This document shows, piece by piece, positions 13,701 to 27,755 of a stretch of 38,967 nt of DNA. Position 1 is the stretch's first letter; each line of letters starts with the position of its first letter. Below the pieces are notes generated by a model. The model saw nothing but the letters and a program-made list of their open reading frames with translations. It made no database searches and was not told the origin of the DNA. The DNA comes from Baumannia cicadellinicola str. Hc (Homalodisca coagulata). Lineage in GTDB: Bacteria > Pseudomonadota > Gammaproteobacteria > Enterobacterales > Enterobacteriaceae. The stretch spans positions 30,559 through 69,525 of the forward strand of contig NC_007984.1 of NCBI RefSeq assembly GCF_000013185.1, read 5' to 3'. Made by a program: the position numbers and the translations under genes.

Positions 13701-14556
13701 ATGGTACTGATGATTGTCAGTGGTCGATCTGGTTCAGGAAAATCTGTTGCGTTACGAGCTTTAGAAGATATGGGTTTTTATTGTGTCGACAATCTACCAG
13801 TAATACTACTACCACAATTAGTAGATATGTTTATTAAGAGTAATATTTCTGTAGCAGTTAGTATTGATATACGTAATATGCCTTGTTCACCAGCAAAATT
13901 AAAAAACACCATCGATAGTTTTTTTTTATTGCAAGTATTTTTACCACAAATTTTATTCCTAGATGCCGAGTATAATACTCTGATTCGTCGTTATAGTTAT
14001 ACGCGCCGGCTACATCCTTTATCGCATCGCAATTTTTCGTTAGAAAATGCGATTAATGAAGAAAAAACTCTATTAGAACCACTACGCTCATGCGCAGATA
14101 TGTTTATAGATACTACTGAGATGTCTGTACATGAACTAGCCTCAATATTACGTACCCGTATTTTAGGTAAATACCAGCGGGAAATGACTATCATATTTGA
14201 ATCATTTGGTTATAAATATGGTATTCCTATTGATGCGGACTACGTTTTTGACGTACGTTTTTTGCCTAATCCCTACTGGGAACCTAAATTAAGAAAAATG
14301 ATTGGTCTAGACCAACCTGTTGTAAGATTCCTCAATCGACATGTTGAAGTACATAATTTTATTAATGAAACTTGTCGTTATCTAGAACATTGGCTACCAA
14401 TGCTAGAGATTAATAATCGTAGTTATCTTACAGTCGCAATAGGTTGCACGGGGGGGTAAACACCGTTCGGTATATATAGCTGAACAGTTAGCTAATTATT
14501 TTAGATCACGAGGTAAAAATGTTAATTCATATCATAGAACAATAAAAAAATCATAA
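13701..14556 (+). CDS. rapZ: RNase adapter protein RapZ, frameshifted near the 3' end
   Basis: RapZ (YhbJ) is a P-loop and RNA-binding protein. In E. coli it hands the small RNA GlmZ to RNase E and so tunes GlmS and amino-sugar supply. The Walker A loop [19 protein letters not shown] is at the N-terminus, and [27 protein letters not shown] marks the conserved C-terminal domain. In the frame from the ATG at 13701 a TAA at 14457-14459 ends the protein at 252 residues, inside TVAIGCTGG. This follows a run of seven G (14450-14456). Removing one G restores the frame, and the next 31 codons read [20 protein letters not shown] and onwards to a TAA at 14554-14556. That gives 284 residues, exactly the E. 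coli length. A GTG four codons upstream is an alternative start, but the family starts at MVLMIVSG. Confidence 0.9.
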
Positions 14557-14601
14557 GAATATCATATTATTATATGTTAATTGATCTAGGAATAATTGAC
14601 T

Positions 14602-16182
14602 ATGCAAAGACCGATTATTATTCGCCGTGCTTTACTTAGTGTTTCAGATAAAACAAATATTTGTGAATTAGCAAAATCATTATTAAAAAGAGGTGTTCAG
14701 CTTATATCTACTAACGGAACAGCACGATTACTGGTAAACGCTGGAATACATGTTACAGAAGTATCTAATTACACAGGATTCCCAGAAATAATGGATGGCA
14801 GAGTAAAAACATTACATCCTAAAATACATGGTGGTATCCTAGCCCGTCGTAATATCGATGATACTATCATGCAACAGTATAAAATTGAGCACATTGATAT
14901 GGTTGTAGTTAATCTCTATCCGTTCGCTGAAGTAGTAGCATCTGCAACATGTAACCATGAAAAAGTAGTAGAAAATATTGATATCGGTGGTACAGCTCTT
15001 TTGCGTTCTGCAGCTAAAAACTATAGCAATGTAGTAGTTGTAGTCAGTATTAATGACTATATCTCTATTATTAATGAAATAGATTGTAATAATGGTGCTG
15101 TTTCCTTAGAAACACGTTTAAATTTAGCGATTAAGGCATTTCAACATACTGCTACTTATGATAGTCAGATCAAAGACTATTTTACAAGCCAGGTATATAC
15201 TGATAGTAGTAAGTGTTCTAGTATATTTCCACCTATCTTGAATATTAACTTTGTTAAGAAACAAGATATGCGTTATGGCGAAAATCAACATCAATTAGCA
15301 GCATTTTATCTTGATACTAGAAATAAAGAAAAATCAATTGCCACTACAAAGCAGCTACAAGGGAGAGCCCTTTCTTATAATAATATAGCTGATGCTGATG
15401 CAGCATTAGAGTGTGTGAAAGAATTTAGTGAACCAGCTTGCGTAATTGTTAAACACATTAATCCGTGTAGTGTGGCAATGGGCAAAACAATATTAGTTGC
15501 CTATCAACGTGCTTATGAAACTGACCCTACCTCAGCTTTTGGAGGAGTAATCGCTTTTAATAGATCATTAGATTTATGCACTGCTCAGGAGATTATTGCT
15601 CGTCAGTTCATAGAAGTAATTATTGCACCAACAGTAGATCAAGAAGCTCTATTAATACTAGCTAAGAAAAAAAATATAAGAGTGTTGAGCAGTGGACAAT
15701 GGAATAAACCGATACCTAATCTAAATTTTAGACAAGTGAATGGTGGGTTATTAGTACAGGAACGCGATTTAGTTATGATAAACTTACATGATTTACGTAT
15801 AGTAAGCCAACGTCAACCGACTACTATGGAGATACAAGATGCACTTTTCTGCTGGAAAGTAGTCAAATTTGTTAAATCAAATGCAATTGTTTATGCTAGA
15901 AATCAACGCACCATTGGTATTGGTGCTGGTCAAATGAGCCGTATAGACTCTGCTAAAATTGCGAGCATAAAAGCTATAGACAACAAACTTAATATACGTG
16001 GATCAACAATGGCTTCTGATGCGTTCTTTCCTTTTCGGGATGGATTAGATTCAGCAGCTAAAGTTGGTGTTAGCTGTGTAATTCAGCCTGGTGGGTCTAT
16101 TCGTGATCAAGAAGTAATTACAGCTGCTAATGAACATAATATAGCTATGATATTTACTAATATTCGTCATTTTCGCCACTAA
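14602..16182 (+). CDS. purH: Bifunctional AICAR transformylase / IMP cyclohydrolase
   Basis: Carries out the last two steps to IMP. The N-terminal cyclohydrolase (MGS-like) domain (about 1-200) shows [25 protein letters not shown] and VVVNLYPF. The C-terminal transformylase domain has [18 protein letters not shown], the catalytic Lys-His in [16 protein letters not shown] and [11 protein letters not shown]. Length 526 versus 529. The frame opens at TTG 14596; the ATG at 14602 has AGGA ten bases upstream. Several normally fixed positions differ: STNGTARL instead of [22 protein letters not shown] instead of NIDIGGPTMVRSAAKN, and KHINPCSVA instead of KHANPCGVA. It forms an operon with purD. Confidence 0.95.
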
Positions 16183-26253: not shown

Positions 26254-26730
26254 TTAGCTTGTGATTTTACGCATAATACATAAAACTAAAGGCCATGCTA
26301 TACCATCTACTATGCTACTAGATAAAATTCCTGTTTGCCATGAATTACTTAGTAATAAATAATTAGTAATATTTACTATGAATTTAGCAATTGCTGAAGC
26401 CAATATTATAATAATTACTTGTTGATAAATATTTTTATTCCGAAAAAATTTAATTTTTATAAAAACTATATATATAATTATACTAATTAATAGAGGATGT
26501 ATACCTAATTTTGATCCTCGTATCAAATCAACAATAATACTTATTAAAAATACTATTCCCACATGTATTCGATTTTGTCGCACCATAACCCAATAAATTA
26601 GTAATAAATTGAGCCAAGATGGCCAAAATAAATTAATAGGTTTGTTACATGGTATGATTGGTAATATGATGATAATAAAAAAAAAGAATAACCATATAAC
26701 CCAGTTATATTGACGATAAAATCGTGTCAT
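26254..26730 (-). CDS. mreD: Rod-shape determining protein MreD
   Basis: Small polytopic inner-membrane partner of MreC in the elongasome that directs side-wall synthesis. Five or six hydrophobic segments cover almost the whole 158 residues (162 in E. coli). Recognisable points are FWPSWLNLLLIYWVM and GSKLGIHPLLIS-type loops with the conserved Asp in VDLIRGSKLG. The sequence is heavily biased to Ile, Phe and Asn. Last gene of mreBCD but separated from mreC by 158 bases. Confidence 0.92.
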   Translation of the reverse strand: MTRFYRQYNWVIWLFFFFIIIILPIIPCNKPINLFWPSWLNLLLIYWVMVRQNRIHVGIVFLISIIVDLIRGSKLGIHPLLISIIIYIVFIKIKFFRNKNIYQQVIIIILASAIAKFIVNITNYLLLSNSWQTGILSSSIVDGIAWPLVLCIMRKITS

Positions 26731-26888
26731 AAATCATGATGTAGCTATTCTGTTTATCACTAGTTTATCACTTAGATCTACTTAGTATGACTTTTATTAG
26801 GTAGTACCAATATATATGATACCTATCATAGTAAATTTAACGAACTTCTTAATAAAACGATACTTATTTAGCTATATTATAGCAGAAT

Positions 26889-27755
26889 TTACTTATTTTT
26901 CCAGAGTAATAGTAGATAATGTAAATGCTGTAGTGTAGCAATAGGTTTCGCTTTAATTAGCATATGAGTACGAGGTAAATCTAACTTTACAGATGAAACA
27001 ACAGCAACTGGATAACCTTCTGGAAATCTACCTCCTAAGCCTGAAGTAACCAATAAGTCTCCAACATGAATATCGATCTTTTCTAGATCTTGAGGTAAAT
27101 ATTCAATCTGTAAATCTGCATTACATCCTTTACCTATTAAGATACCACGTATATTATTACGCAATACTTGGATCGGTATTGCATGGGATGTATCACAAAT
27201 TAGCAAGATACGACTAGTATACTTGCTAGTAGCAATTACTTGTCCTACTATTCCTTGGTCGCTTATTACTGGCTGTCCAATATAAATACCATTATTCCAT
27301 CCTTTATCAATAACTATTTGATTAATATATGGATCTATTTGTAGGGAAATTACCTTTGTCAGAATTGTATGCTCATCATGATGTAATGGAGCTATTAGTA
27401 GTTTCCGCAAAGTAGTATTTTCTTGTTTATAATGCATTAGTAATAATTGTTTACTCTTTTGTAATATTAGCTCCTGACGCAAAGCTCTATTTTCTTGCTT
27501 TAACTTAGCATTTGTTGTAAATATTGTTGATAAATTATCTAATTTTTGCACTGTACTATTGGTAAACAAGTAAATTGGACTTAACACCGTATCCATATAC
27601 ATACGAATAGTAGTAAAACTATCTAGTCTATTATCAACTATGATTAATATGATAGCAACTATCATAGCTAGATATAGTCGCAATGACATAGAATTACCTC
27701 TAATAGGTTTAATAACAGAACGATATTTAAATAAGACTATTCGATTCCAGTTCAT
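26889..27755 (-). CDS. mreC: Rod-shape determining protein MreC (without C-terminal tail)
   Basis: Bitopic inner-membrane protein whose periplasmic domain links MreB filaments to the wall-synthesis machinery. One membrane segment (about 25-43, LRLYLAMIVAIILIIVDN), a coiled coil (about 70-115, KLKQENRALRQELILQKSK) and the beta-barrel domain (VVIDKG-like VIDKGWNNGIYIGQPVISD, LLICDTSHAIPIQVLRN, GDLLVTSGLGGRFPEGYPVAVV) are intact. It stops at LLLLWKNK with 288 residues against 367 in E. coli. The Pro/Gln/Ala-rich tail is gone and 158 noncoding bases follow. The ATG at 27755 adds about 12 residues over the E. coli start, where the equivalent codon is not a start. Confidence 0.94.
   Translation of the reverse strand: MNWNRIVLFKYRSVIKPIRGNSMSLRLYLAMIVAIILIIVDNRLDSFTTIRMYMDTVLSPIYLFTNSTVQKLDNLSTIFTTNAKLKQENRALRQELILQKSKQLLLMHYKQENTTLRKLLIAPLHHDEHTILTKVISLQIDPYINQIVIDKGWNNGIYIGQPVISDQGIVGQVIATSKYTSRILLICDTSHAIPIQVLRNNIRGILIGKGCNADLQIEYLPQDLEKIDIHVGDLLVTSGLGGRFPEGYPVAVVSSVKLDLPRTHMLIKAKPIATLQHLHYLLLLWKNK

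Follow-up and report, generated by a model that had tools for sequence, protein, structure and literature searches.

In Baumannia cicadellinicola str. Hc, the end of rapZ has been put out of frame, most likely because a run of G, now seven long, changed in length by one base. We read this frameshift, with a probability of about three in four, as the product of slippage and as an early, ordinary stage on the way to losing rapZ, in a reduced genome from which the small RNAs handled by RapZ have apparently gone before. Backing this reading are the frame break itself, the lack of detectable GlmZ and GlmY, the full loss of the gene in one sister symbiont and an intact copy in another. The gene lies in the window analysed here, a stretch of 38,967 nucleotides of the chromosome.

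Frame break at a run of seven G

The features at the site are as follows.

13701..14456, forward strand: rapZ body, 252 codons, with a nearly complete Pfam PF03668 N domain and a C domain (PF22740) covered at 91 of 121 positions
14450..14456, forward strand: run of seven G, the point of frame loss, from the sequence
14457..14459, forward strand: TAA stop in the body frame, from the sequence
14458..14556, forward strand: out-of-frame rapZ tail, 32 codons plus the stop TAA at 14554-14556, by homology
14596..16182, forward strand: purH, the downstream neighbour; the listed start is TTG 14596, and homology places the start at 14602

Read directly from the sequence, the seven G at 14450-14456 are followed at once by the in-frame TAA at 14457-14459. 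The body frame (13701-14459) gives 252 amino acids from ATG 13701, or 256 from the alternative start GTG 13689. The tail frame (14458-14556) holds 32 sense codons of the RapZ end and a stop, and body and tail together make 284 residues, as many as E. coli K-12 RapZ has. A preliminary description of this DNA had recognised the gene, its frame break and the total of 284 residues, all of which are borne out; it was also right about the run, the stop and the RapZ-like continuation, though the tail has 32 codons and not the 31 it counted.

A tblastn search of the window with the 285-residue RapZ of the sister symbiont matched twice, in different frames: 13701-14456 corresponds to residues 1-252, and 14452-14550 to residues 251-283. 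The tail is 81% identical to that of the sister across 32 residues, and its frame is therefore not open by chance. The motif and the tail stand in a single frame in 80/80 related loci kept (the best 80 of 575 confirmed); the exact motif script located the RapZ end in part of L081-L110, and its misses there carry no claim. The sister genome G002 has an intact rapZ with no G run at this site.

Among open frames of at least 80 codons in the sister stretch, 42 have a match in the window and two of these need two frames, rapZ and an antisense frame that spans the purD/purH junction. Each of the 28 other window genes compared aligns in one frame. In the whole 686,194-base single-contig genome there are three distinct G/C runs of at least seven, the rapZ run being one of them. 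The remaining two (L131:1767 and L132:1413) lie within open, full-looking frames that read through, of genes that by our reading are ispF-like and cystathionine-lyase-like. Within rapZ itself, the frame is kept at a T run of nine at 13919 in the body and at an A run of seven at 14544 in the tail. In Providencia vermicola, rapZ has a seven-G run at the same codons (L079:3738-3744), in frame and read as Thr-Gly-Gly-Lys.

The equivalent place in the sister genomes was found with purH as the anchor. Further along, the sister codon that matches the window's purD start (ATG 16203) is ATA (L163:19199-19201), possibly a non-standard start, and the first start called by script is 240 bases downstream.

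A literature search for rapZ with endosymbiont and pseudogene found nothing, which does not prove that the frameshift is unpublished. The name rapZ is absent from the available text of PMC4758232, and also from PMC5592932, an RNA-seq study of this symbiont, where the search covered the name rapZ alone and not older gene names.

Length of the G run

Homopolymer runs are prone to error, and the run could have been misread or misassembled, or be a rare variant, with rapZ intact; for the 633-kb sister genome, 454 data gave 68 predicted genes out of frame, which were then corrected manually (PMC4758232, available text). We searched a database of 5,772,631,384 protein sequences and considered the best 120 of 8000 scored candidates. 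Among these listed matches, the 252-residue form was recovered at 100% identity as a cluster of one sequence from 6 contigs, the longest of 66,304 bases, and no full-length RapZ of this symbiont was present. The next match listed, P0001 aside, was the sister at 78%. P0001, which outscored the window's own protein, has 400 residues in which a stretch of RapZ resembling that of E. coli is repeated internally; it is probably a misassembly and was excluded.

The listed matches suggest that other assemblies, which we take to be independent, have the same run length. With the 252-residue form on 6 contigs and no full-length form listed, a misreading, which the preliminary description had allowed for, is unlikely; the single-frame alignment of the 28 other window genes also counts against it, as does the chromosome having presumably been Sanger-sequenced. 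We thus hold an error or rare variant to be highly improbable, and the one-base frameshift is most likely authentic.

The truncated protein

The protein left by the frame break would at best be a 252-residue RapZ without the end of its C domain. Its RapZ-like N domain (PF03668) scores 196.9 bits over profile positions 1-157 of 158, with a GRSGSGKS motif that we take to be Walker-type. The C domain (PF22740) is incomplete, with 91/121 profile positions, and the protein ends inside it. The body frame breaks off immediately ahead of the equivalent of Lys251; the protein thus lacks His252, Arg253 and the tail, and the set of pocket residues His190, Thr248, Gly249, His252 and Arg253 is not complete, the last two being encoded beyond the stop (numbering of the RNA/metabolite binding pocket as in the available text of PMC5737377 and PMC9841335).

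There are solved structures for the RapZ family. In E. coli, H190A, G249W and R253A, in the pocket that contacts GlmZ, abolish activity (PMC9841335, in part), and changing Lys270, Lys281, Arg282 and Lys283 abolishes RNA binding (PMC7073468, in part; see also PMC5737377). The basic RNA-binding tail is lost, as the preliminary description had it, and the damage is worse than claimed there, since it begins before the pocket residues His252 and Arg253 (PMC5737377, PMC9841335).

The 252-residue protein could nonetheless be stable and still perform a task of its N domain, which may be to bind nucleotides or something that does not depend on GlmZ, having surrendered only the RNA-binding end. The completeness of the N domain (157/158 profile positions), the normal constraint at body sites and the several genomes that keep RapZ with no detectable GlmZ would agree with this, and an E. 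coli variant that has lost RNA binding, RapZquad, retains glmY activation (PMC7073468, in part). Against it, the break falls inside the C domain and not merely in a loose tail, E. coli RapZ domains made separately are insufficient for glmY activation (same source), and protein change in rapZ is skewed to this lineage. We therefore consider this reading unlikely; under the preferred one, loss of the gene, the truncated protein is probably useless.

Small RNA partners and rapZ across relatives

Both glmS and an RNase E/G-family protein are present in 4/4 genus genomes, whereas neither GlmZ nor GlmY was detected in any of the four, with E. coli positive as the control for each. Of the two genes whose persistence the preliminary description wanted checked, glmS thus remains throughout the genus genomes, and glmZ was detected neither in this genome nor in the other genus genomes surveyed.

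The survey of relatives used stricter filters, and a separate search of this genome alone agrees with it. GlmZ was matched in 24/60 relatives, 18 of them above the family cut-off. Among same-family genomes of at least 3.7 Mb, 21/21 have a match at E <=0.001 (18 above the cut-off), and no GlmZ turned up in the same-family genomes of at most 1.2 Mb (14 with this one) or in G011 of 2.0 Mb. Three matches (G007, G025 and G029) fell below the cut-off at 47-50 bits, which indicates that a diverged GlmZ could be missed; diverged GlmZ or GlmY could likewise escape the models in this genome.

For rapZ, a match was found in 49/60 relatives. The other same-family genomes of at most 1.2 Mb have it in 3/13 cases, one of them partial; the ten misses include G003, which is fragmentary here, its contig ending at purH. 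The gene is intact with no detectable GlmZ in G002, G011 and G016, so RapZ may have another use, and lacking GlmZ is not in itself enough to render rapZ useless.

The genus relatives include a 759,425-base genome with a RapZ that carries the label Candidatus Palibaumannia cicadellinicola, and G001, with a contig of 632,672 bases and no rapZ. The gap between rpsI and purH in G001 is 624 bases. We searched it for a relic of rapZ and rejected the candidates: the best tblastn match had E 0.43, and the best match of a permissive blastn search (E 0.009) was on the opposite strand, in sequence of 16.5% GC.

With GlmZ and GlmY apparently gone, loss of the rapZ frame would be tolerated. Judged from the genomes compared, this lineage would then be at an early stage of a loss that has been completed in the sister symbiont G001.

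Protein change in the body and tail

To assign changes to lineages, E. coli K-12 was used as the outgroup for rapZ and for 23 of 28 control genes (cls-like, dedA, aroQ, prlC and pitA lay outside the E. coli stretches and were left out). In the rapZ body, 35 changes are found here only and 5 in the sister only, the highest ratio of the 24 genes. The 23 other genes pooled have 553 here and 231 in the sister, and the contrast with rapZ gives Fisher p = 0.019, a value that ignores gene-to-gene overdispersion. By raw rate on this lineage, 4/23 genes are above rapZ. The end branches of a RapZ tree are 0.34 here and 0.057 in the sister (the bootstrap is not settled and the branch is flagged as long). 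Next after rapZ in ratio are mreC and mreD (window 26254-27755), with 50 changes here to 8 in the sister for mreC and 37 to 7 for mreD.

This pattern fits a weakening of constraint on rapZ before or around the break. Any such weakening would be mild, because conserved core sites are kept: near-invariant body sites are changed at 5/125 here and 4/125 in the sister. The pN of the rapZ body against the sister is also mid-range, with 15/28 other window genes higher.

The tail shows no overall decay. Compared with the sister, the body is 78.2% identical and the tail 81.2%; in 1667 protein pairs of about equal body identity the mean tail identity is 79.3%, and 59% are as low or lower. For this body/tail split, 111 of the 120 listed proteins were usable and nine were dropped. 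The pN/pS against the sister is 0.221 in the body and 0.208 in the tail. Clean changes in the tail are 5 in this lineage and 0 in the sister, against 33 to 6 in the body, and the two skews do not differ (Fisher p = 1.0).

The conserved sites behave differently. With P0076 excluded from these counts, 3/15 tail sites conserved to at least 95% are changed versus 5/125 in the body (Fisher p = 0.04), and 4 of the 20 tail sites conserved to 90% are changed in this protein, a number equalled or exceeded in 3/111 proteins, this one included. On this evidence a general decay of the tail after the break is not shown, and the tail could have evolved freely over about 20% of this branch (a simple Poisson sketch gives P = 0.055 at 0.2 and 0.03 at 0.25).

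The preliminary description had called the tail unspoiled and the mutation perhaps very recent. The first holds for identity and pN/pS and fails at the three near-invariant sites; the second reduces to "not old", since the state of the tail is compatible with a break dating back as far as roughly one fifth of the branch leading here. Because the tail may have been free for that fifth, its state does not demonstrate continued expression: selection tests on 32 codons do not distinguish a break within the branch's last fifth from a tail that is still expressed.

Possible slippage and recoding at the run

RNA polymerase slippage at the G run, or a +1 ribosome shift at GGG-UAA, could yield some full-length RapZ, leaving the gene effectively intact. 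The tail is still RapZ-like with normal pN/pS. Glycine tRNAs were found with anticodons GCC and UCC and none with CCC (ARAGORN, 39 loci covering 40 RF00005 hits). Low-level frameshifting at a seven-G run is on record in the available text of a review (PMC5009743). The same review and PMC3017870 record correction at A/T runs in Buchnera and Blochmannia, as proposed cases in PMC3017870 (in part), and poly(A) frameshifts in symbionts are corrected in 12-50% of transcripts (PMC5009743). Of the single-base transcription deletions in Buchnera, more than half are in runs, at a rate rising with run length; of all Buchnera deletions, 16/57 are (both PMC5574713, in part).

The run in rapZ is short and made of G. 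Deletions in runs are rare in E. coli, where G and C are under-represented among the deletions, with no significant base bias in Buchnera, and the available portion of that study detects no restored frame (PMC5574713). The G run is absent at the sister's site, which confines the frameshift to one lineage, and the excess of changed near-invariant tail sites given above speaks against a tail in use.

In prfB a Shine-Dalgarno-like element stands some 3 bases upstream of the slip codon. None is present at this spacing in rapZ, where 14445-14450 reads TGCACG, and the stop context is UAA-A here versus UGA-C in prfB. No RNA stimulator was found around the site (fold z -0.83, with 40/200 shuffles as stable).

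Production of full-length protein by polymerase slippage, which the preliminary description had offered as one explanation, thus finds no positive support at a short run of one lineage with no stimulator found, and we regard rescue by slippage or ribosome shift as improbable. A more specific proposal takes the seven G and the adjoining UAA for a natural site of +1 recoding, no CCC-anticodon glycine tRNA having been found in the genome; a useful share of full-length RapZ would then be made and the tail would be under selection. This appears very improbable. Under the preferred reading, replication slippage would have inserted the extra base, and full-length protein is probably not made.

Comparison with known systems

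The site would catch the loss of a regulator in progress, after the disappearance of its small-RNA partners, with one sister intact, one without the gene and this lineage between them. It also cautions that a symbiont frameshift with an open tail is not automatically rescued by slippage.

Homopolymer frameshifts in symbiont genes were reportedly described by Tamas et al. in 2008. The preliminary description was right that insect symbionts provide homopolymer precedents, but those are A/T runs (PMC3017870, PMC5009743, in part). The Blochmannia and Buchnera frameshifts resemble rapZ in having a short change of run length and an otherwise open gene in a reduced insect-symbiont genome; theirs are in A/T tracts, some of them common to several species and corrected in mRNA, whereas here the run is seven G, in one lineage (PMC3017870, in part). 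A slippage-corrected frameshift is expected at a long A/T run, conserved in relatives, in a gene with unaccelerated protein change. Here the run is seven G; among relatives, G002 is intact without the run, G001 lacks the gene and the contig of G003 ends there; and protein change is skewed to this lineage relative to the pooled genes, yet pairwise pN is mid-range.

Compared with prfB-type +1 frameshifting, the stop likewise adjoins a possibly slippery P-site codon with the remainder in the +1 frame, but the rapZ site differs in the missing Shine-Dalgarno element and in the stop context, and the cassette is absent from the sister (PMC5009743, in part). Compared with E. coli RapZ (PDB 5o5o, 8b0i), the Baumannia protein is of the same family, with both Pfam domains and 182/250 aligned body residues identical, and differs in stopping partway through the C domain, so that the counterparts of His252 and Arg253 are not reached and the basic tail is missing.
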